From: Clostridium sp. Marseille-P299
GTDB taxonomy: Bacteria; Bacillota; Clostridia; Lachnospirales; Lachnospiraceae
Direction of reading: 5' to 3'
Assembly (NCBI RefSeq): GCF_900078195.1
Contig: NZ_FJVE01000005.1
Coordinates: 77,001 to 141,000 of the forward strand
DNA length: 64,000 nucleotides
Under the pieces are notes generated by a model. It was not told the origin of the DNA and did not search any database. It saw only the letters and a list, made by a program, of their open reading frames with translations. The position numbers and the translations under genes are program-made. Below, in pieces: positions 377 through 20,906 of the stretch; the stretch's first letter is position 1; the number at the start of each line of letters is the position of its first letter.

Positions 377-695
377 TGACGTTTTCACCCCTTGAATTTT
401 TTTAGGTTTATATATATCATCGGCTAAACGTGTTACGAACATAATGTCGATTCACGCATACCGTAGCCCTGCTTCCAAGGCATTACCTTTAATGGCAAGC
501 ACTTTTTGGATGGTATAAACCATCTGACATCAACACATAATACAACTAAATAAGACGTATTAAGTATTGATTTTGGCATATATTGTGTATTCCACCAGCA
601 TTATAATAAATATTTTTAAAAACTCTTTGCAATTCCAATATTATGTGTTATAATTGATATGAGTGGGCACACAAAACCATAATAGTGCACATTTC

Positions 696-724
696 ATATT
701 ATCATAGTAAAGTCAAGCTGTCAA
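696..724 (-). promoter_or_regulatory. sigma-A promoter of rpoB
   Basis: On the minus strand TTGACA (719-724) and TAATAT (696-701) are 17 bp apart, and a TG one base before the -10 makes it an extended -10 promoter. Transcription would start near 689. The leader 377-689 holds no clear hairpin series or ORF. The strength fits rpoB being uncoupled from the ribosomal protein operon. Confidence 0.8.
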
Positions 725-912
725 TACCCAATTTGTACAGCTTTTTTTAAATTCTTTTAATTTTTTTTTGACGGATAATCTAAAATTGCATTAAAATGTA
801 AAGTATTATCTAAGTGTTTCCAGAATTGTCATAAATAATACAGGATTCATAAATAGATGAAATAAAACTATTATTTATACAAGTATATAAGAAGTTCATT
901 AGAAAAACATTT

Positions 913-938
913 GAAGGGGTTATGAAAATAACCCCTTC
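913..938 (-). terminator. terminator downstream of the MFS transporter gene
   Basis: A perfect 11-bp stem (GAAGGGGTTAT with its complement) closed by a GAAA tetraloop, followed on the minus strand by GTTTTTCT. It lies about 100 bp after the stop of the MFS gene. The remaining 740-910 stretch, back towards the rpoB promoter, is AT-rich with nothing recognisable. Confidence 0.75.
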
Positions 939-1040
939 CTTCTTATTTAATATCTCTTTATTTATCTCTTTATTTGTCTCTTTAATATTTCTCTATCTAA
1001 TACTTTTTAGATTTAATCATCCTTTTGACTAATATTCTTT

Positions 1041-2192
1041 TTATTCAATATTCTTTCTTTTATAATTAATAAACGCGAATATTACCATACATGTTGTGCT
1101 AATCGTAAGGATGCCAATCGCTCCAGTTAATCCAATAACATCTGCAACCACTCCAATGATTTTAGGGAATACGATTCCTCCAAGAGCTGCAATTGCTAGT
1201 AACATCGACATACCAGAAGACGAGCCTTTTATTATAGTACCTGCATTAGCAATACATGTTGGATAAATACCAGCAAAGAAAAATCCTAGCATAGCAATTG
1301 AAATGGAAATCACAGTTAAATTTTTTGTAGCTACAAGTAGAACAAAGAATATAGCTGTAAAGATACAGTTGATTAGTATTAAACTCTTTTTATTCATTTT
1401 CTTTGACAAACTAGCAGTAACAATTCGGCCGATCATTACAGCAACCCAAGTAATTGAAACTAAGTTAGTTGCAAAACTATCACTCATGATACCAGTACTT
1501 TTAAAATATGTAACAAACCATCCATTTACACAGTTTTCAAGTCCTAAATAAAAGAATAACACTAAGCCAATTACGTAGAAATCAACACTCTTTAAATAAG
1601 AACGATTTTCCTCGCTTTTTTGTTTTTGCTTACTTACTTGATTGTCATCATTGGATATATTAAATAATAAGAACAATGCTATTACTAATAATCCGATAAT
1701 TGTATAAACAATATGTCTCCATGTTAAACCAATATTAATATAAAGAGAGGTTAAGAATGGGGCTAAAAATGCTCCAATTGCAAATGACATATGTAAGAAG
1801 TTAAGTGCCGCATTTGAACCATTACTCTGTTCATTCACTACTGTGTTATTAAAAATACTAACTGTTCCTCTTCCTATTCCTAATAATACAAACAATAAAT
1901 ACAACAATAATACTGGTGGTAACAATGTAATTCCTAATAAACTAAGTGGAATTAAACTTGACAGACAAACAACCGTAAATTTACGTCCTAACCTTTCTAT
2001 AAAAAATGGATTCACAAAGCTTGCTAGAAAATTACCAATAGCAAAAGCCGACAATAATCCTCCTGCTACACCATAACTAAGACCTGCTTCAGTAATAAGA
2101 TAAGGCAGAATTGTTCCGACCTCAAGCACCATCATTCCATTTACGAGGAATGCAAAATAACATGGTAAAAAGATTTTCCACTTTCGATTCAT
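1041..2192 (-). CDS. MFS transporter
   Basis: 383 residues, overwhelmingly hydrophobic, with about 12 membrane segments. A short loop GRKFTV follows the second/third segment (MFS motif A region, FIERLGRK) and a charged central loop (about residues 185-200, KQKQKSEENR) separates the two halves. These are features of the major facilitator superfamily. Substrate is not evident. AAAGGG precedes the ATG. It is transcribed alone after a long leader (2193-2468) with a T-box-like sequence, which, if real, would point to an amino acid or related compound as substrate. It lies between rpoB and a sugar/pectin gene group, so a sugar substrate is the alternative. Confidence 0.8.
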   Translation of the reverse strand: MNRKWKIFLPCYFAFLVNGMMVLEVGTILPYLITEAGLSYGVAGGLLSAFAIGNFLASFVNPFFIERLGRKFTVVCLSSLIPLSLLGITLLPPVLLLYLLFVLLGIGRGTVSIFNNTVVNEQSNGSNAALNFLHMSFAIGAFLAPFLTSLYINIGLTWRHIVYTIIGLLVIALFLLFNISNDDNQVSKQKQKSEENRSYLKSVDFYVIGLVLFFYLGLENCVNGWFVTYFKSTGIMSDSFATNLVSITWVAVMIGRIVTASLSKKMNKKSLILINCIFTAIFFVLLVATKNLTVISISIAMLGFFFAGIYPTCIANAGTIIKGSSSGMSMLLAIAALGGIVFPKIIGVVADVIGLTGAIGILTISTTCMVIFAFINYKRKNIE

Positions 2193-2246
2193 AATTATTT
2201 CCCTTTCTCACTTGTATCATGGCAGAAGCACAAACTAAAAAAAATT

Positions 2247-2468
2247 CGTGTAATACCACCCTTAAAAGCCCCCATAAAAAAAGAAGCTTATCGCGCTATG
2301 AAATATTTAAATATCCTCACAGCGTGTCACGCTACATAAAAATTAATTGGATTTACTTTATCCATTGGGCATAAGAAAAACAATTATGCAACACAACATA
2401 ATTGCCACTTAATCTGCTCAATTTGATATTCAGAAGCAAAGTTATTTACTTCATTCCGCTCCATTATA
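2247..2468 (-). promoter_or_regulatory. promoter and long leader with a T-box-like sequence (uncertain)
   Basis: An extended -10 promoter (TGG then TATAAT, -10 at 2463-2468, weak -35) starts a leader of about 270 nt before the MFS gene. Near its 3' end AAGGGTGGTATTACACG (2247-2263) resembles the T-box antiterminator core AGGGTGGNACCGCG and is followed by eight Ts. An 8-bp stem (CGCTGTGA/TCATAGCG) sits upstream. The usual Stem I landmarks are not convincing and no standard terminator stem pairs into the core. It is therefore either a degenerate T-box or another structured leader. Confidence 0.35.
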
Positions 2469-2499
2469 CCACAGAGTAAAATATTTTAAAAGAGCAGAA

Positions 2500-2544
2500 A
2501 GTCAAGAGTACTACCAAGAAACAACCTTGATAATACTCTTGACT
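2500..2544 (-). terminator. terminator of the serine hydrolase gene
   Basis: Arms of 19 bases (2500-2518 and 2526-2544) pair with only two G-U pairs, with a 7-base loop, and are followed on the minus strand by TTCTGCTCTTTT. It ends transcripts from the gene stopping at 2575 and lies just upstream of the promoter of the next gene. Confidence 0.8.
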
Positions 2545-2574: not shown

Positions 2575-3531
2575 TTAATTTAAAAGCGGAAATATCACAT
2601 CATAAAATGCTTGATGGATATACTTAATATCCTTAGAACGCTCTACCAAATCTGCATTGGTTATTAATATAAAATCATGTTTTGGATAGCATGCAGCAAG
2701 CTGACCACCGATACCATAGAAAGTAAAACCTCCATCTCGATTACCCCAAATCTGATATCCATAACCAAATTGCTCATCGTACGCTTCATAATGCGCAGTT
2801 GATACTAGAGCAGTCGTCATCTCTTTTAAATACTCTTTAGGAATCAATTGTTTTCCTTCATATATCCCCTGATTCATACATAAAGTCGCCACTGCTGCAA
2901 GGTCTCTTGTAGTGCAAGATAGCCCGTCTCCACCTCTTACAATTCCCGCATCATCCTTATCCCATGTTGCTGTTTTTGAAAATCCAATTGCATCAAGTAC
3001 CTTTTCACGCAGATAAGTAAACAAGTCCTTTCCTGAAAGTCTGGCAACCAAAGCAGATAATACATGCGTAGCAGAGGTATCATATGAGAATATAGTGCCT
3101 GGATGATAATCTGGTTCAACACAGAAAAAGGACTCTACCCAATCACCATCATAGAGCTTGTATGTGGTTGACTTATGGGCTGTTGTCATTGTTAGCAGAT
3201 GCTTAATCTTCATTTCTGCGATATAAGGATGTACACCATTCTTAGGAAGCTTATCTTTAAAATAATCACAGATTGGATCCTCCAAGCTAAGCTTTCCTTC
3301 CTCTTTTAAGAGACCTATTGCAATTGCAGTAAAACTTTTACCTACAGAATACATTCTGTGATTTTTCTCTGCATTCCAACCTTTAAAATAGTTCTCATAT
3401 ATCAAATTTCCTTTTGAAATCATCATAAGACTATCTAGTTCAACATTGTGTTTTTCTAATTCATTTAGAAACTCGTTAATTTTTTCCTCTGGTATCCCAA
3501 CCTCACTTGGGCAAATCCTATTCCACTGCAT
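2575..3531 (-). CDS. beta-lactamase-family (class C-like) serine hydrolase
   Basis: 318 residues from the chosen ATG (MQWNRIC), picked because GGGGG lies 5 bases before it; an in-frame ATG 12 bases upstream lacks a good site. It shows the class C/esterase pattern: SVGK (S62, K65) as the SxxK nucleophile pair, Y150 in FSYDTS as the second motif, and a C-terminal GIGGQ in the position of the third motif. No signal peptide, so cytoplasmic. Such proteins are usually esterases or amidases rather than true beta-lactamases. It directly follows the sugar importer genes, so it may deacylate an imported plant oligosaccharide; this is inference. Confidence 0.8.
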   Translation of the reverse strand: MQWNRICPSEVGIPEEKINEFLNELEKHNVELDSLMMISKGNLIYENYFKGWNAEKNHRMYSVGKSFTAIAIGLLKEEGKLSLEDPICDYFKDKLPKNGVHPYIAEMKIKHLLTMTTAHKSTTYKLYDGDWVESFFCVEPDYHPGTIFSYDTSATHVLSALVARLSGKDLFTYLREKVLDAIGFSKTATWDKDDAGIVRGGDGLSCTTRDLAAVATLCMNQGIYEGKQLIPKEYLKEMTTALVSTAHYEAYDEQFGYGYQIWGNRDGGFTFYGIGGQLAACYPKHDFILITNADLVERSKDIKYIHQAFYDVIFPLLN

Positions 3532-3573
3532 GTTATCCCCCATTAAAACATATTCTCTTATTATTACTTTAAT

Positions 3574-5085
3574 TTACTTTGCTAAAAACTCATCAAACTG
3601 CTTCTGAATTTCTGCAACATACTCATCCCAGCCTGCTGCTTTTAATTCTTTTATCAATTGATCAATGTTTTCATCATAATCCTTAATACCTGCTAGCATT
3701 GGATTTGCAAGTTCTGTCCAAATACTTTCAATTTGAGCTTTCTGAGTTTTTATTTTATCATAATTGATAGAAAATCCAAAAGAACAACTACGAATTGCTT
3801 CCTTGTCCCAATTACGGTATGTATCAATGAAATCGTCTGGGAAGCGTTCATCAAAATGAGATATGTTAACATTAAAGATCATCCATTGATAGAATAATTC
3901 ATCTGTGTTAATAGGTACAATCTTATCATTTTCAAGTGTATAGTCGGTTCCTTCAATACCGTAAATTAACATATCTGCAATTTCTGTATTCTTTTGCAAT
4001 AAGTTCACAAACAAAGCGACACGATCAGCTTTTTCAGAAGTTACAGGCACTTGAAATGCTGTACTTTCATAAGTTTTCTTATAGATTGGCTTATCTGGTC
4101 GTATATAATACTCTTTTGTGTAAGCATCCGGTACTACTTTCTTTAAGCTTGGTTCATTCTCAATAACTGTTGTTCCACAAGTACCACGGAATAAAGATAC
4201 CATACCTGCTTGAAATGGATTAGTAACAGTATTAGTAAGAATATCTTTCGGAATCAAATCATTCTTATACCATTCGTTATAAAGCTTAACTGCTTTTTCA
4301 AATTCTTCACTTTCTGCAAAACTTACAATTTCCTTCGTATCTTGTTCTACCCAAAGTCCTGTAGCAAGAGGTGTTAAATTTCTATCACTTGTACCACGAA
4401 TAATATATTCTGCTGATGCTAATTCATAAGTGGCATTTAATCCAAATTGTTCCTTAGCCTTTGTTACATACTCTGTTAAGTCATCAAGATTTTCAATTGT
4501 TTCCATTCCAATAGTATCCATAATATCTTGTCTTACACAAACAGTACTATAAACACCACCAGTTGGTTTGTTACCAATTGGAATCGCATAAATACGGCCA
4601 TCGTAAGTATATGGTTCAAAACTTACCTCATCCATATTATTTCTCCAGTCAGGAAGGTACTTTTCAATTGAGCTAGTAAGATCTTGTAAATATCCCTTAC
4701 TTACACTAGAAGCTGCCCAAGTTGGGTCAATAATTGCAGCATCAAACTCTTGTCCTGATGCTATCATTAAGTCTACTTTACCACCTGCACCATTTTCTGT
4801 CCAAGGTAAATACATAAGTTCTACTTTTGTATTTATTTCATCAATAAAGAGCTGTTGAAACTCATTATTCATTAACTCTGTCATTCTTGGTGATTCCTCG
4901 CCAAATAAAACAACTTTAATTGTATCTAACTCCTTTGGACGCAGTGAGTTTTCCTCAAGCTCTAACTCCTTTTTTTCTGTATCTGTGGGTGTTGTTGCTG
5001 TTTTCCCCGTACATCCTACAAATAACATGGAACAAGCCATCATTATTGCTGTTGCAGAAACCATTGTTTTTTTCCATTTTCTCAT
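3574..5085 (-). CDS. ABC sugar importer, extracellular solute-binding lipoprotein (LplA/YtcQ type)
   Basis: 503 residues with a lipoprotein signal peptide (MRKWKK, hydrophobic core, lipobox LFVGC with C25). The mature protein has the extended length of the binding proteins that work with LplB/LplC-type permeases for complex oligosaccharides. AGGAGG lies 9 bases before the ATG. Both permeases precede it in the same direction (5150-7048) and no ATPase is encoded nearby, so it probably uses a shared MsmX-like ATPase. The neighbouring pectin methylesterase and AraC sensor suggest a pectin or rhamnogalacturonan fragment as ligand; the sequence alone does not show this. Confidence 0.85.
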   Translation of the reverse strand: MRKWKKTMVSATAIMMACSMLFVGCTGKTATTPTDTEKKELELEENSLRPKELDTIKVVLFGEESPRMTELMNNEFQQLFIDEINTKVELMYLPWTENGAGGKVDLMIASGQEFDAAIIDPTWAASSVSKGYLQDLTSSIEKYLPDWRNNMDEVSFEPYTYDGRIYAIPIGNKPTGGVYSTVCVRQDIMDTIGMETIENLDDLTEYVTKAKEQFGLNATYELASAEYIIRGTSDRNLTPLATGLWVEQDTKEIVSFAESEEFEKAVKLYNEWYKNDLIPKDILTNTVTNPFQAGMVSLFRGTCGTTVIENEPSLKKVVPDAYTKEYYIRPDKPIYKKTYESTAFQVPVTSEKADRVALFVNLLQKNTEIADMLIYGIEGTDYTLENDKIVPINTDELFYQWMIFNVNISHFDERFPDDFIDTYRNWDKEAIRSCSFGFSINYDKIKTQKAQIESIWTELANPMLAGIKDYDENIDQLIKELKAAGWDEYVAEIQKQFDEFLAK

Positions 5086-5149: not shown

Positions 5150-6061
5150 TCAACCTTTTACAGCTCCAACTATTACTCCTTTTGTAAAATACTTTTGCGC
5201 GAATGGATATAGGCAAATAATAGGTCCAATAGTGATACAAATAGTTGCCATTTTAGTTGTTTCAAGTGGCGTATTTACTGTATAACCTAATGACTGATTC
5301 GCTTGGCTAGCCATGAATTGCGCATTTGATAACATATTATATAAATAATATTGAAGTGGATACAGTTTTTGTTTTGATATAAACATCAAAGCCAGATAAT
5401 AATCATTCCAATAACTTAATGCATAGAACATCCCAACCGTTACAAGTCCTACCTTAGCAAGTGGTAAATATATTTTGGAATAAATCTTTAAAAATCCTGC
5501 TCCATCAATTCTTGCTGCTTCTGCAATTTCTTCTGGAATTGACTTAAAGAAATTACGTAATAAGAAAACATTGAATGCACTAATACTACACGGAAGAATG
5601 AGAGCAAAAAACTTATCCGTTAGATGATAATATCTTGTACACATAATATACCAAGGTAATAAACCAGCTGAAAAAATCATTGGAATATATAAAAACAAGT
5701 TTAAAGCTCCTCTTGGTTTAAATTCATTTACAGAAAGTACATATGCAAATGAAGAAGAAACCAACAGCGAAAAAATTGTTCCAAATACCGTTACCATTAT
5801 TGTAACTTTATATGCATTAAAGATGTTCTTTCCTAATGATGTAAACACAAGTTTATACGCTTCTAAACTAAATTTCTTCGGGATAACCGTATATCCCTCT
5901 TTTACAACCGTGCTTTCATCAGAAAATGATACCCCCAGTGCTAATAACATCGGATAAAGACATGCAAAGGCAAAAGCAATAACAATTATATAAAATAACA
6001 CGCGAAGTATCTTATCACTCATAGTTCTTGACTTAATTTTATTCTTACTTTTTACAGACAC
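5150..6061 (-). CDS. ABC sugar importer permease (LplC/YtcP type)
   Basis: About 303 residues with six membrane segments. The EAA loop EIAEAARIDGAGFLKIY is the contact site for the ATPase in MalG-class permeases, and it ends with the typical KYFTKGVIVGAVKG tail. The AGGAGG overlaps the stop of the upstream permease. The GTG immediately adjacent to it is too close, so the GTG three codons later (8-base spacing) is chosen. It forms one operon with the other permease (12-bp gap) and the binding protein. Confidence 0.88.
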   Translation of the reverse strand: MSVKSKNKIKSRTMSDKILRVLFYIIVIAFAFACLYPMLLALGVSFSDESTVVKEGYTVIPKKFSLEAYKLVFTSLGKNIFNAYKVTIMVTVFGTIFSLLVSSSFAYVLSVNEFKPRGALNLFLYIPMIFSAGLLPWYIMCTRYYHLTDKFFALILPCSISAFNVFLLRNFFKSIPEEIAEAARIDGAGFLKIYSKIYLPLAKVGLVTVGMFYALSYWNDYYLALMFISKQKLYPLQYYLYNMLSNAQFMASQANQSLGYTVNTPLETTKMATICITIGPIICLYPFAQKYFTKGVIVGAVKG

Positions 6062-6073
6062 AGGGTTCACCTC

Positions 6074-7048
6074 CTAGAATAATTTATACTCTTTATCAAA
6101 TCTTCCCGCTAACCAATTGGAGAACAACACTAAAACAAATCCAAATAAGGATTGATATAAACCAATTGCCGAGCCCATTGTAAAATCGCCCATTCCAACA
6201 ACAGATCGATATACAAATGAATCAATAATATCTGTAGTTTCTAATAACATTGGTGAAAGATTCGTTAAAGACATCATCATTGTTAAATCACCGCTTAACA
6301 TCTTACCAACGGATAGTAGGAATAGAATAATAATCGTTGGCTTTAAAAGTGGTATTGTTATGTAGCGGATTTTTTGCCACATGGTCGCTCCGTCTACTTC
6401 TGCTGATTCATAATAAGCGGTATCAAAACCTGTGATTGTTGCAAAATAAATGATGGCACTATAGCCCGCACCCTTCCATATATTTGCTATGGTTAAAATA
6501 ACTCTCCAATACTTTGGATCATTGTAGAAATCAATTTTATCAAATCCAATTGCTTCTAATACTAAGTTAATGCTACCGCCATTATAACTTAATAATGCTC
6601 TTAAAATACCACCCGCAACTACCCATGAAATAAAATAAGGTAAAATTGATAATGACTGAGTTACTTTTAGAACTTTCTTATTACGTATCTCATTAAACAT
6701 GATTGCAAGTGCTACTGCAAAGGTGGTTCCGCAAACTGTATATAAAACATTTAATATCATTGTATTTTTAGTAGCTCTCCAAGCTTTCTCAAAATTAGCG
6801 AAGAAAAACTTAAAATTATCAAATCCTACCCATGGACTACCAAAGATACCATCTTTAAAGTTATACTGTTTAAATACGATTACTAAGCCACTCATTGGTA
6901 TGTATGCAAACATAAGTGTCAAAATAATTCCTGGCACTGCAAGCAGCCAAAGCGCCTTATACTTTTTAAAATGTTTTGTTAATCTCACACCCATTGATAA
7001 TTTCGAAGTTGGTGCTTGTCTAACAGGTACTTTCTTTATATCCTCCAC
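6074..7048 (-). CDS. ABC sugar importer permease (LplB/YteP type)
   Basis: 324 residues, first gene of the importer operon. A cytoplasmic N-terminus is followed by six membrane segments and the EAA-loop sequence YESAEVDGATMWQKIRYI of MalF-class permeases. GTG start with AGGGAGG 7 bases upstream. The preceding gap 7049-7305 is AT-rich and must hold the operon promoter, but no convincing -35/-10 pair could be fixed there. The AraC regulator upstream is the likely activator. Confidence 0.88.
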   Translation of the reverse strand: MEDIKKVPVRQAPTSKLSMGVRLTKHFKKYKALWLLAVPGIILTLMFAYIPMSGLVIVFKQYNFKDGIFGSPWVGFDNFKFFFANFEKAWRATKNTMILNVLYTVCGTTFAVALAIMFNEIRNKKVLKVTQSLSILPYFISWVVAGGILRALLSYNGGSINLVLEAIGFDKIDFYNDPKYWRVILTIANIWKGAGYSAIIYFATITGFDTAYYESAEVDGATMWQKIRYITIPLLKPTIIILFLLSVGKMLSGDLTMMMSLTNLSPMLLETTDIIDSFVYRSVVGMGDFTMGSAIGLYQSLFGFVLVLFSNWLAGRFDKEYKLF

Positions 7049-11157: not shown

Positions 11158-12522
11158 TTAATATGGGAGTGCACCGGATAGCCCATATACGATTAAATAA
11201 GTTATTAATATCCAAAAGAAATGCTTCGTATATTCTTTTTGAAAACTTACAAAGTTTTGATCTGTGTCACCACATAGTAAGTAAAGCGCTGGGATAACAG
11301 GGCTTATTAAACGGAACGATTGCCCAACCATGGATGCTACTGCTGCCTCCATTGGAGAAATTCCGAATTGTCCCATGACATTGCTTATTACAGATGCAAT
11401 ACCAAAGTAGAAAGCATCCTGTGGTAGGAAACAAATGGCTGGTGCGGCAATGACTGCATATACTGGAGCCATATGAGAACCAAGTCCTGTAGGAATGATA
11501 CTTGCCACAGAATCTGCTAATGCATTTGCCATACCAGTTCCTGATAATACACCTGAGAAAATACCTGCACCTAAGGTTGCTAAGGTTGTAGGTAGTGCAT
11601 CTGCTGCAAGCTCTTCAATACGTTCGTTACACTCTTTTACAGAACGATAGTTTACAACTAAAGCAACGGAGAAAGCTAGCATAAATACTACGGATCCATG
11701 CACATATCCTTTAATCAATACAAAAATAGCAATTCCTGTTATAAGTAAATTAAACCAATATAATTTAGGTCTCTTTAATTCTGGATCCTTATCACGTATC
11801 GCAGAAAGCATATTCTCCAAATGTTCCTTGGATACTTGACCAGCTGAGGAAGATACGTAATTTAATCTTTTTCTTTCTTTCATTCCAAGTACAGCTGTAA
11901 TAATAATAACTACAACCTGTGCAGCTAATAAACCTGGTAATAGATTAGCAAATAGTTCATTTAATTCTACACCAATTGCTGTAGCTGCAGCAATCGTAGG
12001 TCCACCCCAAGGTAGCTGATTCCATATACCAATCGGTGCAACAATAATTATTGCTAAGTAACTAAGCTTTAAATTTAATTGTTTGTAAAGATTTCTAAAA
12101 GCCGCAAGACAAATGATAATTGTAGTAGTTGTATCACCATTTAAAGCAACTACACTTGCAACCATAACGGTTGAAAGAAGTACCTTTAGAGGGTCCCCTT
12201 TTGCTTTCTTGATAAAAAATTCAGCGACAGGATCAAACAATCCTACATTTAACATTAAGTCAAAAAACAAGATTGAAAATAAGATTGTTATACCTGGTGA
12301 AATAACACCCCATGAAACTTTGCCAGTTGTAGCATTCTGTTTAAAGAAAACACTTTCTTTTATCCAATCAAATAAATCTAAAAAATTATTTCCGTTGATG
12401 AATACAGCGATAATACCAAAAAATAAAGGAACTAGTGTTAAGGCAACAAAAACAGATAATTTTTTCTTAGAGAGCAGTATTATAAATGTAGCAATCATGG
12501 CTAAAGCTAAAAAAGTTAACAT
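11158..12522 (-). CDS. CitMHS-family carboxylate transporter
   Basis: 454 residues, about 12 membrane segments, with NGDTTTTI and WGGPTIAAATAIG in the positions conserved in CitMHS citrate-metal:proton symporters. GGAGGAGA precedes the ATG. It is the last gene of the tartrate group, 28 bp after ttdB. The family imports citrate complexed with divalent metals. The adjacent tartrate dehydratase makes L-tartrate or a similar dicarboxylate the likely substrate here, which is inference from context. Confidence 0.82.
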   Translation of the reverse strand: MLTFLALAMIATFIILLSKKKLSVFVALTLVPLFFGIIAVFINGNNFLDLFDWIKESVFFKQNATTGKVSWGVISPGITILFSILFFDLMLNVGLFDPVAEFFIKKAKGDPLKVLLSTVMVASVVALNGDTTTTIIICLAAFRNLYKQLNLKLSYLAIIIVAPIGIWNQLPWGGPTIAAATAIGVELNELFANLLPGLLAAQVVVIIITAVLGMKERKRLNYVSSSAGQVSKEHLENMLSAIRDKDPELKRPKLYWFNLLITGIAIFVLIKGYVHGSVVFMLAFSVALVVNYRSVKECNERIEELAADALPTTLATLGAGIFSGVLSGTGMANALADSVASIIPTGLGSHMAPVYAVIAAPAICFLPQDAFYFGIASVISNVMGQFGISPMEAAVASMVGQSFRLISPVIPALYLLCGDTDQNFVSFQKEYTKHFFWILITYLIVYGLSGALPY

Positions 12523-12550: not shown

Positions 12551-13165
12551 TTATTTTATATAGTGTACTTTTGTATATAATTCCTCCAAAGCCTTATCTT
12601 TACGTTTATTAAACTCAACTTTATTTTGTTCAAAAATATTATTGCCTTCTGCATCAATCGATACAATAAGTGGTCCAAATTCCTTCACTCTACAAACCCA
12701 TAATGTTTCAGGCATTCCTAAGTCTTCCCAATGATATTCTTCAATCTCTTCTACACAAGTTGCTGCTACAACTGCACATCCTGCAGGGAAAACACAATGT
12801 ATTGCTTTATGTTCTCTACAGCCAGCTTCTGTATTAGGACCCATTCCGCCCTTACCAACGATCAATTTAACCCCTGTTTGTTCAATGAATTCTTTTTCAA
12901 ATTTCTCCATTCTCATACTTGTAGTTGGTCCAATAGAAACCATTTCAAATTTATTGTCTTCACCTTCAATTTTACGAACAATAGGGCCGGCATGAAAAAT
13001 AGCTCCACCTTTAATATCTACAGGTAACTCTCTTTTTAACTCTATTAATCTTCTATGAGCAACGTCTCTACATGTTACAATATGCCCATTAAGGTAAATT
13101 ACATCTCCAATTTTAATATCCTTTAAATCTTCATCTGAAATTGGTGTAGTTAGAATTTTCTTCAT
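12551..13165 (-). CDS. ttdB: L(+)-tartrate dehydratase beta subunit
   Basis: 204 residues, MKKILTTPI at the start, then [39 protein letters not shown] and VGKGGM, ending KVHYIK. These match the C-terminal domain of class I (iron-sulphur) fumarases. As remembered, the match is closer to E. coli TtdB (201 residues) than to clostridial FumB (about 185). With TtdA it would convert L-tartrate to oxaloacetate. The ATG overlaps the TGA of ttdA by 4 bp, indicating translational coupling. Fumarase activity cannot be excluded. Confidence 0.82.
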
Positions 13166-14061
13166 AGTTGTACCCCCTTATGTGTAATAGAATCATAGCT
13201 TAAATCACTATTAAATACAATTGTTCCACGTCTATGTGACCAGCATCCTACATTCACTGCGCAAGAGATAACGGATGGGTGACGAGCTGAGTTTACAATA
13301 TTTACTCCTAAAACAGACTTAGTACCTCTTAAACCTTGTGGCCCTAAACCAATTGAGTCAATTGCTTTTGTCATCTCATCTTCTAATTCAGCTGCCTTCG
13401 GGTTAGGATTATGACTACCTACTGGACGCATCAATGCTTTCTTAGCCATAAATGCAGCGGAGTCGATGGAAGTACCTATACCAACACCTACTAATAAAGG
13501 AGGACATGCATTAAGTCCATAAGAAGTCATAACATCCAATACAAATTTAACAACTCCTTCATAGCCTTCACCTGGCATTAATGTCTTTCCTTGTCCAGGA
13601 AGTGAACATCCTCCACCTGCCATATAAACATCTAATTCTAATTTATCACTCTCAGGAATGATATCCCAATATAACCATGGAGAATCAGTACCAACATTCG
13701 TGCCCGTATTCACTTCATCGAAAGTTTCTACCGTATTGTGGCGAAGAGGAGCTTCTTTTGTTGCTTTTGCAACAGCATCTTTTAGGAGCGGTTTCAAATT
13801 ATCAATATAAGGGAATTTCGTTCCAACTCTTACAAACATTTGTATCACGCCTGTATCCTGACAAGAAGGTCTGTTTAATAGTTCTGCTTGTTCTTGATTT
13901 TTCTCCATAGCCTCATAAATCATTTTTGCCATGGGCATTTCTTCACCTTCACTAAGCTCTTTTAACTTTGCAGTTACATCGTCTGGTAGCTTTTTCCCAA
14001 CCAATCCTACAAACGCTGCTATTTTGTCTCTTAGCAAATCCAAGGCTGCTTGTTTTTCCAT
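13162..14061 (-). CDS. ttdA: L(+)-tartrate dehydratase alpha subunit
   Basis: 299 residues of the class I hydro-lyase alpha fold. Cysteines for a [4Fe-4S] cluster appear in [17 protein letters not shown] and [10 protein letters not shown], and [16 protein letters not shown] marks the substrate region. Length and end ([12 protein letters not shown]) fit TtdA (303) better than two-subunit fumarase (about 280). AGGAGG lies before the ATG. A promoter and a TGGATACA operator are 100-145 bp upstream, so ttdA-ttdB-carrier form their own regulated operon. Confidence 0.83.
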
Positions 14062-14157
14062 AATGTATTCCTCCTTTTTTAATACAACAGATCATTAGAA
14101 AAGTAAATTTCTTTTCTTTACATAAAAAATTATATTGTTTAATTTTTTATATTTTAT

Positions 14158-14207
14158 ATTGTATCCATTTTTAAGTTTAATATATAGTAAAATTGCTTTA
14201 TAATCAA
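14158..14207 (-). promoter_or_regulatory. promoter and putative GntR operator of ttdAB
   Basis: On the minus strand TTGATT (14202-14207), a 17-bp spacer and TATATT (14179-14184) form a good sigma-A promoter. TGGATACAAT (14158-14167) follows about 11 bases after the -10, that is at the start of the transcript. The same octamer occurs at two other promoters of this module. Confidence 0.65.
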
Positions 14208-14257: not shown

Positions 14258-14374
14258 CTATTTTATTTTCTTCTGCATTAGGGCTGTAATTATAGAGAGC
14301 AAACCTAACACTAAAAAGATTGCAGCCATTCCTTTCCACATTAAATCCAATGTGATAATAAAGTTCTCTAACAT
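14258..14374 (-). CDS. 38-residue OadG-like membrane protein
   Basis: A short ORF starting at ATG 14372-14374 with GGAGG 7 bases upstream, 14 bp after oadB and in the same direction. It encodes MLENFIITLDLMWKG, then one hydrophobic helix and the basic end MQKKIK. The pattern of a short polar N-terminus, M-x-x-GM, one membrane helix and a basic tail resembles the N-terminal half of OadG (gamma) chains, which anchor Na+-translocating decarboxylases. It is probably a small accessory subunit of the pump; no homologue could be checked. Confidence 0.65.
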   Translation of the reverse strand: MLENFIITLDLMWKGMAAIFLVLGLLSIITALMQKKIK

Positions 14375-14388: not shown

Positions 14389-15525
14389 CTACAAATACTG
14401 CGCCATCAAGCTTAATATAACTCCGCCGGCAACTACAGATCCTATTTGTCCAGATACATTCGCACCAATTGCATGCATGAGCAAGTGATTTGTTGAATCT
14501 TCTTTTAATCCCATCTTTTGCACTACTCTTGCAGACATAGGAAATGCTGAGATACCTGCAGCTCCAACCATAGGATTAATTTTTTCTTTGGAAAATAAAT
14601 TTAAAACCTTAGCAAATAACACGCCACCAATCGTATCAAACACAAAGGCAACGAGACCAATAAGCATAATAAATAATGTATTAACATTAACAAAATCTTC
14701 TGCTTTCATACTAAATGAAATCGTTATACCAAGAAGTAATGTTACAAGATTCGCCAAGTTGTCACTGGCTGTTTTAGATAAGTTCCCTAGCACTCCACAT
14801 TCACGTAGTAAATTACCAAACATTAAGAAGCCAACCAATGAAACTGATGCAGGGGCTACGAAGCCAGCAAGTAATGTTACGATAATGGGGAAGAATATTC
14901 TAGCTTTTTTTGAAACATTACCTGGGTTATAGTTCATACGTATTAATCGTTCTTTCTTAGTCGTTACCAAACGTATAGCAAGAGGCTGAACAATTGGAAC
15001 TAAAGCCATGTAAGAATATGCCGCAACTGCAATGGCACCTATGTACTTAGACTTTAGTATCTGAGAAACTAAAATTGCAGTAGGACCATCAGCCGCTCCA
15101 ATCACCCCAATAGAAGCCGCATCTTTTAAGTCGAAACCCAATAATGCTGCTACTGAAATAGAAAAAAAGATACCAAATTGAGCTGCCGCACCAAATAACA
15201 ACATTTTAGGATTTGCAAGTAAAGGTCCAAAATCAATCATTGCACCTATACCGATAAATAAAAGCAAAGGTAATGCTTCTGAAGCTTCGATTCCCACATT
15301 AAAAAGCCATTCGATGATTCCGTTTGTCTCACCAATTCCTGCTAATGTCTGATTAATAACACCACTGGCAGGTAAATTTACTAAAATAGCACCAAAACCC
15401 ATTGGTAGTAGCAGTGACGGTTCAAAATCTTTACAGATAGCTAGGTAAATTAATAAAATACCTACTCCGTACATAATTAATTGCTCCACTGTCACTGACA
15501 AAAATCCTGAAATAAGAAAATCCAT
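14389..15525 (-). CDS. oadB: Na+-translocating decarboxylase beta subunit
   Basis: 378 residues with about 9-10 membrane segments. GVIGAADGPTAI carries the conserved Asp used in Na+ translocation, and the end region has AAGISAFPMSARV. This is the membrane pump subunit shared by oxaloacetate, methylmalonyl-CoA and glutaconyl-CoA decarboxylases; it decarboxylates carboxybiotin and exports Na+. TAGGAGAGG precedes the ATG. It is downstream of oadA by 44 bp and followed by the OadG-like peptide. Confidence 0.92.
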   Translation of the reverse strand: MDFLISGFLSVTVEQLIMYGVGILLIYLAICKDFEPSLLLPMGFGAILVNLPASGVINQTLAGIGETNGIIEWLFNVGIEASEALPLLLFIGIGAMIDFGPLLANPKMLLFGAAAQFGIFFSISVAALLGFDLKDAASIGVIGAADGPTAILVSQILKSKYIGAIAVAAYSYMALVPIVQPLAIRLVTTKKERLIRMNYNPGNVSKKARIFFPIIVTLLAGFVAPASVSLVGFLMFGNLLRECGVLGNLSKTASDNLANLVTLLLGITISFSMKAEDFVNVNTLFIMLIGLVAFVFDTIGGVLFAKVLNLFSKEKINPMVGAAGISAFPMSARVVQKMGLKEDSTNHLLMHAIGANVSGQIGSVVAGGVILSLMAQYL

Positions 15526-15569: not shown

Positions 15570-16958
15570 TTAAACTGGATATACTCCGGAATTTGCTAGA
15601 TTTATATCTATTTTATCTTGCTGTGCTTGTCTATATTGAAAAAATTCCGTAGCAACCTGTGGAAACATTACATAGGTCAACACATCTTCCTCTTGTTTTT
15701 TCCAAACTTCAATCTCTTTTTGTGCAGCTGGTAGTTCTGGCTCTAACAGGTCTGCAGGTCTACAAGTGATAACCTTTTTATTACCCAGAGCTTTTCTTTG
15801 AACCTCTTTGTTCATAGGTTTTACTGTTCTACCATACTCACCTCTAAGAAGTGCTTTACTTTCCTTGGTTACCATTTTATAACGTTCTCCTGATAATACA
15901 TTTAGTACTGCCTGTGTTCCCACAATTTGACTAGATGGAGTAACAAGTGGAGGTTCACCAAAATCTTGTCTTACATGAGGTATTTCCTTAAGTACCTCGT
16001 AAAATTTATCTTCCGCCTTTTGCTCCTTTAATTGAGATACTAAATTTGAAAGCATACCTCCTGGTACTTGATATAAAAGTGTTTTAATATCAACTCCCAG
16101 AATCTTTTGGTTCATTTGACCGCTCTCCAATGCTTTTTCCCTAATCGGTCTAAAATATTCGGCTATTTCAGAAAGAAGCTTTTGATCAAGTCCAGTATCA
16201 TAAGGAGTTCCTTTTAATGTTTCTACCATAACCTCTGTCGCTGGCTGACTTGTACCTAATGCAAGAGGGCTAATAGCACAATCAATAATATCTACTCCTG
16301 CCTCTACTGCTTTTAAATATGTCATGGATGCTACACCACTAGTATAATGAGTATGTAATTGTATAGGCAAAGAGATTTCTTTCTTTAATGCTTTAATTAA
16401 ATTCATTGCTTCATAAGGTAATAAAAGGCCAGCCATATCCTTAATACAAATGGAGTGAGCTCCCATCTCTTCTACTTCTTTTGCCTTTTTTACATAATAG
16501 TCTATGGTATAGCTATCACCCAACGTATAAGAAATCGCTACTTGAGCATGTCCACCTTCTTTTCTAACAGCTTTAATAGATGTTTTTAAATTCCTTACAT
16601 CATTTAATGCATCAAATACTCTAATAATATCAATACCATTGCTAATGGCCTTTTGCACAAAATACTCAACCACATCATCCGCATAATGACGATATCCTAG
16701 TAGATTTTGACCTCTTAAGAGCATTTGAAGCTTTGTATTTTTAAAGCCATCTCTTAATTTTCTAAGTCTTTCCCATGGATCCTCTTTTAAAAATCGAATG
16801 GATGCATCAAATGTTGCGCCTCCCCAGCATTCAACAGAATGGTAGCCTACCTGATCCATTTTCTCAATAATTGGTAGCATTTCTTCTGTTGATAACCTTG
16901 TTGCCATCAAGGATTGATGGGCATCACGAAAAACAGTTTCCGTAATTTTTATTGCCAT
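15570..16958 (-). CDS. oadA: oxaloacetate decarboxylase / transcarboxylase 5S carboxyltransferase
   Basis: 462 residues of the pyruvate carboxyltransferase family. FRDAHQSLMATR near the start, YRHYADD, ISYTLGDSYT, CIKDMAGLL and LHTHYTSG give the TIM barrel with its metal-binding Asp and His residues, and the PYC_OADA helical domain follows. It lacks the C-terminal biotin domain found in fused OadA, which is supplied by the separate carrier protein encoded immediately upstream (18 bp). It transfers CO2 from oxaloacetate to biotin, leaving pyruvate. Confidence 0.9.
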   Translation of the reverse strand: MAIKITETVFRDAHQSLMATRLSTEEMLPIIEKMDQVGYHSVECWGGATFDASIRFLKEDPWERLRKLRDGFKNTKLQMLLRGQNLLGYRHYADDVVEYFVQKAISNGIDIIRVFDALNDVRNLKTSIKAVRKEGGHAQVAISYTLGDSYTIDYYVKKAKEVEEMGAHSICIKDMAGLLLPYEAMNLIKALKKEISLPIQLHTHYTSGVASMTYLKAVEAGVDIIDCAISPLALGTSQPATEVMVETLKGTPYDTGLDQKLLSEIAEYFRPIREKALESGQMNQKILGVDIKTLLYQVPGGMLSNLVSQLKEQKAEDKFYEVLKEIPHVRQDFGEPPLVTPSSQIVGTQAVLNVLSGERYKMVTKESKALLRGEYGRTVKPMNKEVQRKALGNKKVITCRPADLLEPELPAAQKEIEVWKKQEEDVLTYVMFPQVATEFFQYRQAQQDKIDINLANSGVYPV

Positions 16959-16975: not shown

Positions 16976-17407
16976 TTAATTAAACGTAGCGATGATTTGA
17001 CCTGGGTCTACCATATCACCCACAGATGTATTGATACTAACTACTACTCCATCTTCTGATGCAACAATTTCGTTCTCCATTTTCATAGCTTCTAACAATA
17101 CCACAACATCACCTTTCTTTACTGTGGCACCAACCGCCACTTTGATTGCTAATATTTTACCTGGCATAGGTGCCACAACTGAGATTCTTCCCTTCGCACC
17201 AGATGAAGTTGGCTCAGCAACTATCTTTGTTTCATTAACTGTAGGGGTTGATGCCACTGTCTCCTGATGCTGTACTGGTGTTGGTACATATACTGGTGTT
17301 GGCGCATTCATCGGTGCTGGTGCTTTAGCAGTAAAATTTCCTCCCATTACTTCTTCCACTGTGACATCATAAGCGTTACCATTTACAGTAACTCTAAAAT
17401 TTTTCAT
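16976..17407 (-). CDS. biotin carboxyl carrier protein of the decarboxylase
   Basis: 143 residues: an N-terminal 25-residue domain with NAYDVTVEEV, a Pro/Ala/Thr/Val-rich flexible linker (about residues 28-70) and a biotinyl domain (75-143) with EAMKMENEI, K109 being the biotinylated lysine. The layout matches the 1.3S/MmdC/GcdC carrier of transcarboxylases and Na+ pumps. A 148-bp gap without a recognised feature separates it from the upstream oadG. Confidence 0.92.
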   Translation of the reverse strand: MKNFRVTVNGNAYDVTVEEVMGGNFTAKAPAPMNAPTPVYVPTPVQHQETVASTPTVNETKIVAEPTSSGAKGRISVVAPMPGKILAIKVAVGATVKKGDVVVLLEAMKMENEIVASEDGVVVSINTSVGDMVDPGQIIATFN

Positions 17408-17555: not shown

Positions 17556-17840
17556 CTATCTAGTTTTTGGTATCCTTTTAATTGATTTTACAACTAAACC
17601 GTTACTATCTGTTCCCAAAGTACAAGCAATTGCTGCTGTAATGGCTGCAACTAATTCGTAGTCCTCAAATTGATTTAAGGTATTTTCTTGAATAGCCGGC
17701 ATTTCTTCATGAGTTACTTCAATTGCCTGATTAGTCTTATTAAGAAGCTTCCATATCAATACTACGAAAACGGCGATAATAACCCCACAGGGAATTAAAA
17801 GTTCCCTAACACTGAAAGTAATATCAAGTATTTCATTCAT
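17556..17840 (-). CDS. oadG: OadG-family gamma subunit
   Basis: 94 residues: one membrane helix (about 11-33), an acidic hydrophilic stretch, then YELVAAITAAIACTLG and a basic end VKSIKRIPKTR, which is the usual C-terminal pattern of OadG chains. It lies 21 bp after the carboxyltransferase gene. The gamma chain assembles the cytoplasmic transferase with OadB. The 38-residue protein at 14258 would be a second, shorter gamma-like chain in the same cluster. Confidence 0.8.
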   Translation of the reverse strand: MNEILDITFSVRELLIPCGVIIAVFVVLIWKLLNKTNQAIEVTHEEMPAIQENTLNQFEDYELVAAITAAIACTLGTDSNGLVVKSIKRIPKTR

Positions 17841-17861: not shown

Positions 17862-19232
17862 TTATTGTATAATGTGTTTCTTCTTTGGCCTTGCCTCTTC
17901 TTTGTAATAAAGCATTTCCATTGCAGCTATAATTCTTTGTCTAGTTTCCTGAGGTTTGATAATATCATCGATATAGCCTTTTCCTGCAGAATACTTTGTG
18001 TTATTTTGTTGATTGCTATACTTTTCTTCTGCTTCTATTAATTGTGATAATTCCTTTTCACCTTTACAAAATACCTTAGCTGCATGTTCTGAAGAAATAA
18101 CTCCTATTTTACTTCCTTCCCAAGCTAACACCACGTCAGCACCTATATGCTTACTATTAAGTACCAAATAAGTGCTTCCAATTCCACGTCCTACAATAAC
18201 ATTAATTTTCGGAATATCACTATGTATTAATACTTTCGTTAATAATCCAGCGGCTCTTCCTACAATAGCCTCTTCTTCAAGTGTATTTTTAAATTCCAAA
18301 ACATTAATAAGAGTTACCAAAGGTATATCAAAAGCATTTAAGAAAGCGATAAATTCTCTTGCTTTATTACATCCACCTGAGGTAAGTTCAGTACCACATA
18401 CTGCAATTGCACCGGTAGTAACTCCATTTAGCTTAATAAATCCAGTAACAACTTCCTCATTCTGCATTGCCTTCACTTCTAAGAATAAGTTACTATCACT
18501 AATTGCAGTCACTAACTTTCTTCCATCCTCTTTATATTCCTCAATATCAGGAATCATACGATTTAAATCATCATCCGTTTTTAATATTTCCGCATCTTCT
18601 TTGTTACTAGCCGGTAAAATATCAATTAACTCTCTGATTTTACCAATGATCTCAGATTCACATCCTATGCCATCCGCTTGTTGATTCATAGGGAAAAAGT
18701 CAAAATCTTTGTTATGTTCAACTACCGCAGGTGGGTTCATATATAATTTTCCCTTACCCGCCTCTAGAAAAGTAAAATCTGCCATTGCGTTCATAAGAGA
18801 AAGCCCACCACCACAATTACCAAATACTCCAAGTATCTGTGGAATGATGCCTGAGGCCATTGTTTGTTGAATAAAAATGTTGCCTAGTTCCTCCATTCCA
18901 TCCAACCCTTCACTGATACGGAGGCCGCCACAATCCATTAAACCTATTACTGGAGATTTTGACTTTAATGCCAATGCATATAATTTACTGATTTTTCTTC
19001 CATGCATTTTACCAATACTGCCCTTTAAAACAGAAGAATCTTGGCTAAATACATAAACCAACTTCCCATTTACAAGGCCATATCCAGTTATTACACCATC
19101 CCCTCTATTTTCAGTTGGTTCAGGATTAAAATCAGTTTTTTCACCTAGTATATGTTTTCCTATCTCAACAAAACTATCGGCGTCTAGCAAAGCATTAATT
19201 CTCATTTTTGCTTCATTTTCTGCAATATCCAT
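17862..19232 (-). CDS. biotin-dependent acyl-CoA-type carboxyltransferase (MmdA/12S-like)
   Basis: 456 residues. RINALLDADSFVEIG at the N-terminus, DCGGLRISEGLDGMEELGNI and GNCGGGLSLMNAMADF in the N-half, and LINVLEFKNTLEEEAIVGRA and GIGSTYLVLNSKHIGADVV in the C-half are the two crotonase-fold halves of carboxyltransferases. It is shorter than usual MmdA (about 510). First gene of the decarboxylase operon, with a promoter and operator just upstream. Together with a 5S-type OadA, a 1.3S-type carrier and OadB/G it makes a mixed transcarboxylase/Na+-pump set; the acyl-CoA substrate is unknown. Confidence 0.8.
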   Translation of the reverse strand: MDIAENEAKMRINALLDADSFVEIGKHILGEKTDFNPEPTENRGDGVITGYGLVNGKLVYVFSQDSSVLKGSIGKMHGRKISKLYALALKSKSPVIGLMDCGGLRISEGLDGMEELGNIFIQQTMASGIIPQILGVFGNCGGGLSLMNAMADFTFLEAGKGKLYMNPPAVVEHNKDFDFFPMNQQADGIGCESEIIGKIRELIDILPASNKEDAEILKTDDDLNRMIPDIEEYKEDGRKLVTAISDSNLFLEVKAMQNEEVVTGFIKLNGVTTGAIAVCGTELTSGGCNKAREFIAFLNAFDIPLVTLINVLEFKNTLEEEAIVGRAAGLLTKVLIHSDIPKINVIVGRGIGSTYLVLNSKHIGADVVLAWEGSKIGVISSEHAAKVFCKGEKELSQLIEAEEKYSNQQNNTKYSAGKGYIDDIIKPQETRQRIIAAMEMLYYKEEARPKKKHIIQ

Positions 19233-19270
19233 AATTTACTCCTGCATGATTTATATTTTATATTTAATAA

Positions 19271-19311
19271 TGTATCCATTTATATAATAACACCTTCAAT
19301 AAATATGTCAA
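19271..19311 (-). promoter_or_regulatory. promoter and putative GntR operator of the decarboxylase operon
   Basis: TTGACA (19306-19311), a 16-bp spacer and TATTAT (19284-19289) on the minus strand, with the octamer TGGATACA (19271-19278) about 5 bases after the -10, covering the expected start site. This placement would suit repression by one of the adjacent GntR proteins. Confidence 0.68.
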
Positions 19312-19430: not shown

Positions 19431-19463
19431 TTTCATAGTTCTTATCGTTTATATTTGTGCGAT

Positions 19464-20108
19464 TTATTTATTATAATGAGTTAATATATTTTCTAAACTT
19501 CTCTTTATGTGGTTACACATAATTAGCTTTGCTTTATCCGCATCACGTTCCTTTAATGCCTCTACAATCTGTCTATGCTCATTTATAGAAATCTTAGCAT
19601 ATTCCTCTACTTTCACATTACTTCCCATAGACAAACCATTCCACATTGAAGAAAGAAGAGATCTAATTTTATCATTTCCTCCTGCTGTCCAAAGTTCATA
19701 ATGGAAAGACTGGTTATACTTTGAGTAGTCACTAAAATTATTTTCTTTTAAAGATTGAACTGCATTTTCATATGCCTCTAATACCTTGGATATATCAGCA
19801 TTGTTTTTACATATCTTGTAAACAACTTCACTTTCCAAAATTCCTCGGGTTTCATAATGATCTATAATGGCTTTTTCATCAATTCCTAGTACTATAGCAC
19901 CTTTATTAGGTCGTAATTTAATAAGGTTTTCATTGGCAAGGATTTGAAAAGCCTCTCTTACAGGTGTAATAGAAAGCCCAAGCTGCTTTGAAATTCCATC
20001 TAAAGTTATAATTGTACCTGCTTCTAATTCTTTCGCTAAAATAGCTTTACGTAAGGAAGAGGCTGCCTGTTCTCTAGCAGGCATTAATTTTATTTGTTTT
20101 AAAGTCAT
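19464..20108 (-). CDS. GntR-family regulator, FCD type (second of pair)
   Basis: 214 residues: winged helix-turn-helix at about 10-75 (TLDGISKQLGLSITPVREAF, then LRPNKGAIV) and an all-helical FCD ligand domain from about 80, with the metal-ligand-type His residues in YNQSFHYELW and SINEHRQIVEAL. FCD regulators respond to carboxylic acids such as those handled here. The ATG follows the stop of the upstream regulator by one base, so the pair is co-translated. Confidence 0.88.
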   Translation of the reverse strand: MTLKQIKLMPAREQAASSLRKAILAKELEAGTIITLDGISKQLGLSITPVREAFQILANENLIKLRPNKGAIVLGIDEKAIIDHYETRGILESEVVYKICKNNADISKVLEAYENAVQSLKENNFSDYSKYNQSFHYELWTAGGNDKIRSLLSSMWNGLSMGSNVKVEEYAKISINEHRQIVEALKERDADKAKLIMCNHIKRSLENILTHYNK

Positions 20109-20109
20109 C

Positions 20110-20721
20110 TCATAGCACCTTTTCTACCATTTTATTAGTCAAACACAAATAATAATGTTTAAATAACTCACTTAGTTTCTCTTCATCTTTCGTTCTAATT
20201 GCTTCTGCGACGTCATCCCAAATCTGTATTTCCTCTGCCCCTGATAACTCCAAGTCTTTTAAAACAAAAAATACATATATATCTAATAATTTTTTGTGAA
20301 GTTGTTGTATGTAATAATTCTCAACTTCCTCACTAAAAAATCTATGCAATTTTATTTCATTCATAGAATTGCATTTATACTCGTTATAAACTTTTTGAAA
20401 GTGTTCATAATATTCTTCCTTTGTATGAATGACATTCTTAATAAATCCAATTTGAATATCACAAATAAATGAGAATATTTCATGTATCCCTTGTTTCGTA
20501 ATCCCTTTTACTATCACATGACGATTTGGGAGCCTCTTTAAAAAGCCTTCTAATTCCAAAATCTGAAATGCTTCTCTTACCGGCATTCTAGACACCCCTA
20601 ACTGATTAGAAACGACTTCCTGAATCAGTTCCTCACCATCTTTAAGATGGTTTAGAAGGATTTCTTTTCTTAATAAATCGGCAATATGATCTTTTGTCTG
20701 TACTCTTTTGATTAAATCCAT
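20110..20721 (-). CDS. GntR-family regulator, FCD type (first of pair, probably autoregulated)
   Basis: About 203 residues from ATG 20719-20721 (MDLIKRVQTK), preceded by AAGGATGGTGG. The open frame extends 17 codons further, but its -10 element lies inside that extension, so the longer start is not possible from this promoter. Winged HTH with VVSNQLGVSRMPVREAFQIL (about residues 37-56), then LPNRHVIVKGI and a diverged FCD domain. The promoter contains the shared TTGGATACAA sequence over the -10, suggesting autoregulation. Confidence 0.82.
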   Translation of the reverse strand: MDLIKRVQTKDHIADLLRKEILLNHLKDGEELIQEVVSNQLGVSRMPVREAFQILELEGFLKRLPNRHVIVKGITKQGIHEIFSFICDIQIGFIKNVIHTKEEYYEHFQKVYNEYKCNSMNEIKLHRFFSEEVENYYIQQLHKKLLDIYVFFVLKDLELSGAEEIQIWDDVAEAIRTKDEEKLSELFKHYYLCLTNKMVEKVL

Positions 20722-20743
20722 ATCCACCATCCTTGTCCACATT

Positions 20744-20772
20744 ATTGTATCCAATTTTTTATACAAAGTCAA
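20744..20772 (-). promoter_or_regulatory. promoter of the GntR pair with overlapping operator
   Basis: TTGACT (20767-20772), 17 bp, TACAAT (20744-20749). The spacer and -10 form an inverted repeat, TTGTAT ... ATACAA, and contain TTGGATACAAT, the same octamer found at the ttdA and decarboxylase promoters. A repressor bound here would cover the -10. Confidence 0.68.
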
Positions 20773-20847
20773 CTATGGCGCATTTAGGTGAACGCAATCT
20801 CGCAGTGTCTAATTGATAAGGCACTGCATTTATACTTTCTTTATAAA

Positions 20848-20892
20848 TCAAAAAAACCTCTGAAAGGCTGTATACACAACCTTCAGAGGTTT
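20848..20892 (-). terminator. strong terminator after rplL
   Basis: 11-bp perfect stem AAACCTCTGAA (20854-20864) with its complement (20882-20892), with a T run on the minus strand at 20848-20853. It starts 14 bp after the rplL stop and would prevent ribosomal-protein transcripts from entering the catabolic island. Confidence 0.88.
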
Positions 20893-20906
20893 TATTAAGG
20901 CAATAA

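Follow-up and report, generated by a model that had tools for sequence, protein, structure and literature searches.

The window, a 64,000-nucleotide stretch of Clostridium sp. Marseille-P299 (contig NZ_FJVE01000005.1, positions 77,001 to 141,000), carries the ribosomal protein gene rplL and the start of the RNA polymerase gene rpoB on its minus strand. The two genes are 20,530 bp apart (rpoB ATG at 376, rplL at 21269-20907), and the gap holds 17 open reading frames (ORFs). We analyzed this junction in the window and its relatives by family searches, promoter and hairpin scans, and comparison of gene content.

Gene order between rplL and rpoB

The identity of rplL was established with the NCBIfam L12 model (152.7 bits, cut-off 84.4). 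On its far side, rplJ (with an L10 leader), rplA, rplK, nusG and secE follow in the usual order. As expected for a junction split by insertion, the remaining neighbors are normal on the rplL side; the window holds only the first 125 codons of rpoB. Beyond secE lies an AraC-type response regulator gene (25248-26810, minus strand). AraC-type ORFs also occur beyond nusG in three relatives (G001, G008 and G007), consistent with a conserved order on that side.

Read from rplL, family searches of the gap recovered two GntR regulators, an mmdA-like gene, a small ORF, a biotin carrier, oadA, oadB, ttdA, ttdB, a CitMHS transporter, a pectinesterase, an AraC-type regulator, two ABC permeases, a DUF3502 solute-binding protein, a beta-lactamase-fold hydrolase and a transporter of the MFS family. 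All but the pectinesterase (9959-10981, plus strand) share the rpoB strand (16/17). The block is bounded by the rplL terminator on one side and the rpoB promoter on the other, with a further terminator-like hairpin (938-903) after the MFS gene. A preliminary description of this DNA had described the same layout, which holds: the 17 metabolic, transport and regulatory genes that split rplL from rpoB and the order from secE to rplL were recovered by ORF calling and family searches, the co-orientation of all but one inserted gene was as claimed, the hairpin after rplL (20890-20850) can be read directly in the sequence, and the TTGACA-17-TAATAT promoter was located at 724-696 on the minus strand. 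The features that frame the gap, all on the minus strand, are:

1-376: rpoB, first 125 codons, running off the window; its translation is 97-98% identical to rpoB of four relatives (G001, G002, G006 and G007)
666-689: predicted initially transcribed box of rpoB, TGCACTATTATGG...TGTGCC; the sole exact TGCACTATTRTGG match in the window
696-724: predicted rpoB promoter, TTGACA-17-TAATAT with extended -10 TG; conserved in relatives
903-938: terminator-like hairpin (11-pair stem, T-rich tail) separating the MFS gene from the rpoB promoter
20850-20890: rplL terminator, a hairpin followed by a T run
20907-21269: rplL (TIGR00855)
22087-22231: L10 leader upstream of rplJ (RF00557, 84.9 bits, cut-off 44); the L10/L12 feedback element is thus present

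The promoter score in the window (10.3, against a shuffle mean of 9.7 and a largest shuffle of 11.3) could by itself be due to chance. It is lifted above chance by the conservation of the promoter upstream of rpoB in relatives.

The junction in related genomes

The window organism lies near Lachnoclostridium phytofermentans by protein comparison: the best match to its rplL in the species collection was an L. phytofermentans metagenome-assembled genome (98%), and in a six-protein tree the window grouped with G008, G001 and G007 (split from the rest at 0.93; those three together at 0.77). We compared 116 genomes related to G001, which is that same metagenome-assembled genome; this set includes rpoB as low as 50% identical and is therefore wider than one family. 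rpoB was found in 105 of the 116, rplL in 106 and both in 100, with the two on the same contig in 66. Among these 66, the gap was below 450 bp in 37 and 463-100,281 bp with normal order in 26 (above 1 kb in 23), and three were rearranged (G096, G054 and G013). Four relatives have gaps of 20-28 kb (G075, G065, G047 and G043). The view that the junction is nearly inviolable is not supported in this group, as 29 of 66 same-contig relatives have the genes at least 463 bp apart or rearranged. The genes lie on different contigs in 34/100 genomes, 18 of which have rpoB on the plus strand. In 9 of these 18, rpoB starts 20-64 kb from the contig start and rplL does not precede it, so that a real separation is likely in these genomes; the other different-contig cases may be fragmented assemblies.

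Comparison of the interval among relatives, which the preliminary description had proposed, showed that the split is common in the group, that the cargo varies, and that an unsplit relative exists (G032, with an empty junction of 313 bp). The interval of G007 holds an MFS gene and a P-type cation ATPase. In G001, an MFS gene follows rplL, then the start of what is by eye the same ATPase, where the contig ends; rpoB is on another contig. G002 and G006 each carry one putative adhesin-like ORF, opposite to rpoB, and G062 carries an Rce1-like protease. In G008, a TetR regulator and pieces of an alpha-amylase occur in mixed orientations; the amylase gene may be broken, because two adjacent ORFs of contig C114 match separate parts of the profile. 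Contigs C114 (ending inside rplL) and C201 (ending just after rplL) of this genome seem to overlap (loci L148 and L149). More distant cargo includes pyruvate kinase and a sugar kinase (G046), polyphosphate kinase (G098) and alpha-mannosidase (G011). G065 has a 20.5-kb block with a sugar kinase, an ABC transporter, a sugar-binding protein and a sub-threshold fucose-isomerase match, and the G075 block, with UvrA, RF3 and MurT, looks more like a chromosomal rearrangement than an insertion. The cargo is thus unrelated to the operon and varies with lineage, as expected for a junction split by insertion. Across 13 filled intervals of relatives, 53 of 61 ORFs lie on the rpoB strand; the co-orientation of the window block with rpoB is not special.

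In a comparison with 61 genomes, the MFS gene of the window was closest to two genes (65-66%), one within the G007 rplL-rpoB interval and one beside rplL in G001. Because both lie directly downstream of rplL, the MFS gene is probably an older occupant of the junction, and the tartrate and ABC groups were probably added later, between it and rplL.

Promoter, terminator and predicted start of the rpoB transcript

We scanned for TTGACN-17/18-TANNNT upstream of rpoB at loci with rpoB at least 75% identical (65/68, leaving out L002, L012 and L036, below 75%). The promoter was present in 31/32 empty junctions (the miss, L070, is without the strict motif), in 18/18 filled junctions, window included, and in 15/15 loci at which rplL lay outside the fetched piece. 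Dinucleotide shuffling predicts ~0.3 in each set. The promoter was also present in 35 of another 40 relatives (1.1 expected), which were taken from the 105 and whose rpoB is mostly more distant. Terminator-like hairpins followed rplL in 19/33 empty and 22/36 filled junctions (0.2 expected in each by single-base shuffles; at least three of the filled junctions, L054, L060 and L064, are from Bacilli). Because the loci of both scans are related, and some share a genome, they are not independent. The hairpin rule is strict, and it missed the window's own rplL terminator, presumably owing to loop length.

With the promoter and, often, a hairpin present in empty junctions, rplL and rpoB already look like separate units where nothing has been inserted. 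The insertion had been thought to cost the coupling of rplL to rpoB; the empty junctions speak against this, and by comparison of these sequences the window insertion probably broke no such coupling. We consider it very probable that the rplL-rpoB junction is the boundary of two transcription units and a recurrent site of landing or rearrangement, at which the window lineage gained first an MFS gene and later at least two blocks. The first unit would be rplJL, with its own L10 leader and, often, a terminator, and the second rpoB with its own promoter. After the MFS gene, at least two blocks, of which an L-tartrate regulon is the main one, would have come to lie between terminator and promoter, if the order of gains was as proposed. 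rpoB would be driven by its conserved promoter, and the insertion would have left its expression largely unchanged. Relatives often have other genes at this position probably because rpoB has its own old promoter and is not dependent on the gene beside it.

Several points weigh against this account. The hairpin rule gave none in 14/33 empty and 14/36 filled junctions (the window among the latter), and read-through into rpoB could occur in this organism. The next-best MFS relative (62%, G076) is located elsewhere than the rplL-rpoB junction. G008, which groups with G001 and G007 (support 0.77), has no MFS match, so an older MFS occupant needs a loss or a parallel gain. An alternative is that rplL and rpoB formed a normally coupled operon until the recent arrival of an island, which split it and altered the regulation of RNA polymerase; in its favor is a gene order clearly altered from the textbook one. 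We nevertheless consider it improbable: the promoter, and often the terminator, is already in place in empty junctions, and of six close relatives that were examined, all except G032 carry other genes there (G001, G002, G006, G007 and G008).

Downstream of the -10 element, the rpoB leaders have in common TGCACTATTRTGG-N5-TATGC, predicted to be the first ~24 transcribed bases. Of 63 leaders, 62 were anchored on TGC (L141 could not be anchored), and L038 was left out because a second promoter-like match had been picked. The conservation of TGC is by construction, given this anchor; among the positions independent of it (n = 62), T6 is kept in 61, A7 in 60, T8 in 59, T9 in 60, T11 in 58, G12 in 59, G22 in 51 and C23 in 51. 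The strict promoter plus box occurs in 43 of the 116 genomes, once each, and all 43 sites lie 52-366 bp upstream of rpoB; a control with the reversed pattern had no sites. The box with its second half, searched for without the promoter, was found in 12/61 genomes, at one site each, all 63-355 bp upstream of rpoB. Across 291 genomes, a looser class-wide pattern, TGCNNTATTNTG, matched at 14 sites, ten at rpoB (G001, G030, L205-L207 and L248-L252) and four off it (L203, L204, L253 and L254, where an rpoB match is absent from the piece fetched). All seven of these 14 sites with TGCACTATTRTG are at rpoB. TGC or TGT stands at the same place in 27 of the 40 further relatives, against 0.1 expected.

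The Lacto-rpoB RNA motif is a conserved sequence upstream of rpoB in Firmicutes. Unlike it, the leader here has neither a credible Rfam match nor a common RNA fold: RNAalifold on 63 leaders gave none, a weak fold in the six nearest leaders vanished when the set was widened to 13, and Rfam at a permissive threshold returned only two sub-threshold matches to the leader, both on the opposite strand. A palindromic operator, CAC-TATT-GTG, is not favored, because the dyad calls for G at position 10, and 12 of the 62 boxes, that of the window among them, have A there and mostly lack a compensating partner (10 retain C at the partner position, one has the matching T). The elemental pause consensus (G-10 Y-1 G+1) fits 59/62 boxes at one register and 40/62 at a second. 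This fit is weak, since two or more such matches occur in 18% of shuffles of the 24-base consensus. An influence of Y-1 G+1 motifs on pausing during initial transcription has been reported (PMC5902446).

We tentatively suggest, as a possibility raised by these alignments, that rpoB has a dedicated promoter whose nearly fixed first ~24 transcribed bases form a control site setting RNA polymerase supply. Such a site might free rpoB from the ribosomal operon and make the gap a tolerated landing site, in Lachnospiraceae and more loosely in other Clostridia. It could be read by RNA polymerase, through initial pausing or sigma retention, or by another factor. The leaders resemble sigma-dependent pause promoters of Escherichia coli (PMC7876045) in a good -10 element. 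If transcription began at the G of TGC, they would also share a purine between two pyrimidines at a distance of 6-7 nt; this pyrimidine-purine-pyrimidine start fits only under the TGC-anchored alignment with a predicted start. They differ in the position of the -10-like TATTRT, which begins 11 bp past the end of the -10 element in most leaders, farther downstream than the hexamer around -1 to +2 given in a legend of that paper. In the main text of a C. phytofermentans transcription start site study (PMC5171806), rpoB and rplL have no matches, and in the open-licence literature we found no paper on the Lachnospiraceae rplL-rpoB operon or a Clostridia rpoB promoter.

Content and origin of the block

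The preliminary description presented the block as a single catabolic island. It is not one island: at least three groups, an L-tartrate regulon, an ABC/AraC/hydrolase group and a pectinesterase, accompany the probably older MFS gene. The tartrate features, all on the minus strand, are:

11158-12522: CitMHS-type transporter, presumed tartrate carrier by inferred substrate (TIGR00784, 303.1 bits, cut-off 259.7)
12551-13165: ttdB, L(+)-tartrate dehydratase beta subunit (NF006082, 393.1 bits, cut-off 264)
13162-14061: ttdA, L(+)-tartrate dehydratase alpha subunit (NF006084, 506.3 bits, cut-off 365)
14157-14167: predicted operator TGGATACAATA upstream of ttdA, exact TGGATACAWTA
14389-15525: oadB, Na+-translocating decarboxylase beta subunit (TIGR01109, 424 bits, cut-off 190.6)
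15570-16958: oadA, oxaloacetate decarboxylase alpha subunit (NF008985, 778.8 bits, cut-off 718)
16976-17407: biotin carrier protein (PF00364)
17556-17840: small membrane-like protein with no family match; candidate decarboxylase gamma subunit by position only
17862-19232: mmdA-like carboxyltransferase (PF01039; TIGR01117 at 302.1 bits, under its cut-off of 998.8)
19268-19278: predicted operator TGGATACATTA immediately past the mmdA -10 element, exact TGGATACAWTA
19464-20108: GntR/FCD regulator (PF00392, PF07729)
20110-20721: GntR regulator, 203 aa if the start is the ATG at 20721 (PF00392)
20743-20753: predicted operator TGGATACAATA overlapping the -10 element of the GntR promoter, exact TGGATACAWTA

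Five proteins (TtdA, TtdB, CitMHS, OadA and OadB) pass curated cut-offs, among them both dehydratase subunits, as expected of an L-tartrate utilization operon. Between ttdA and oadB, an ORF of 38 codons (14258-14374, minus strand), too short for the ORF list, seems by eye to encode a membrane-like segment and could be a small decarboxylase subunit. In the proposed route, CitMHS would take up tartrate, TtdAB would convert it to oxaloacetate, and OadAB with the biotin carrier would yield pyruvate with Na+ export. The gene content (TtdA, TtdB, OadA, OadB and CitMHS) is like that of known L(+)-tartrate dehydratase and Na+-translocating oxaloacetate decarboxylase sets; the genes here differ from those sets in their order, in the pair of GntR regulators and in lying between rplL and rpoB. 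The adjacent GntR proteins may repress the tartrate genes through TGGATACAWTA, whose three exact sites in the 64 kb fall one each at the gntR, mmdA and ttdA promoters. With one mismatch, ten sites were found against 5.2 expected, a count reached by 5 of 100 shuffles and only marginally above chance, so that the operator claim rests on the exact sites and their positions. The gntR and mmdA sites, overlapping or just past the -10 element, are placed as for a repressor; all three exact sites are predicted GntR operators. With its own GntR regulators and a predicted common operator, the tartrate part of the block looks self-contained.

Close relatives of ttdA (59-63%) occur in 7 of the 116 genomes, none of them G001, G002, G006, G007 or G008; the best named TtdA matches are from Anaerobium (90%) and Lacrimispora (88%). 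The window-encoded TtdA is present on 13 contigs of up to 514 kb, and the GntR regulator adjoining rplL belongs to a protein cluster (P0001, 203 aa) found on 14 contigs of up to 370 kb. Three GntR matches in other organisms lie on contigs of the same length as those of TtdA matches, which suggests but does not prove that the regulator and enzyme genes travel together. In G095, ttdAB is followed by mmdA, biotin carrier, oadB and oadA; in six of seven relatives no oad relative was found near ttdAB within the 11-18 kb fetched from each. GC content (0.352 in the tartrate block, 0.334 in the window) fails to mark the block and is uninformative as to a foreign origin.

The remaining genes of the block are:

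1041-2192, minus strand: MFS transporter (MFS_1)
2575-3543, minus strand: beta-lactamase-fold serine hydrolase, esterase-like (PF00144; weak match to 3-succinylated cholic acid synthase, 150 bits, cut-off 800)
3574-5085, minus strand: ABC solute-binding protein with DUF3502 (PF12010, PF01547)
5150-6070, minus strand: ABC permease (PF00528)
6074-7048, minus strand: ABC permease (PF00528)
7367-9724, minus strand: AraC-type regulator with a long N-terminal part and, by eye, a membrane-like segment (PF12833)
9959-10981, plus strand: pectinesterase, the sole opposite-strand gene (PF01095, 202.9 bits); a signal peptide is not apparent by eye

Elsewhere, the window contains a T-box leader (45469-45743, minus strand), a fluoride riboswitch (52004-52076, plus strand) and a PreQ1 riboswitch (63163-63207, minus strand).

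Variable cargo at one site is also what a site-specific mobile element, either an integrative element or a transposon, would leave at the rplL-rpoB junction, but such an element is very unlikely here. Family searches found no integrase or transposase match among the 17 block genes, the window contains no tRNA, and relatives carry ordinary chromosomal genes (UvrA, RF3, MurT and pyruvate kinase) in the same place. Among 20 of the 29 direct-repeat families and the 21 inverted pairs, none links one end of the block to the other, and within this scope the recombinase gene and terminal repeats typical of such elements were not found. A plasmid search for the junction returned two records, both similar to rplL alone. 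An assembly error, or a metagenomic bin of mixed origin, is highly improbable as well, since the MFS gene's closest two relatives in the 61 genomes directly follow rplL in separate assemblies and the contigs with the window TtdA or the rplL-adjacent GntR cluster are numerous and long, although this evidence bears on the two junctions only indirectly.

The account that we favor, a boundary between two transcription units at which genes repeatedly land, has a precedent. Insertion and later disconnection within the secE-rpoBC cluster are described in Gammaproteobacteria and Bacilli (Brandis 2021, PMC8046335), including, in Lactobacillaceae, nrdHEF inserted after rplL and before rsmC, where two of five species show full separation, and insertions were suggested there to relax selection on gene order. 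The present case is similar in that genes are inserted just after rplL and full separation occurs in some descendants. It differs in the many cargoes of the window and its relatives and in a pre-existing rpoB promoter as the proposed cause; the words "Clostridia" and "promoter" have no matches in the main text of that paper. The window extends this pattern to a further class and supplies a probable cause for it.

In a major bacterial family, a junction often treated as fixed is frequently broken, and a testable cause can be offered, namely that the polymerase gene was already an independent unit. The adjacency of rplL and rpoB should be used with caution as an assembly check in Clostridia. The conserved box at rpoB makes the control of RNA polymerase level in these bacteria experimentally approachable.

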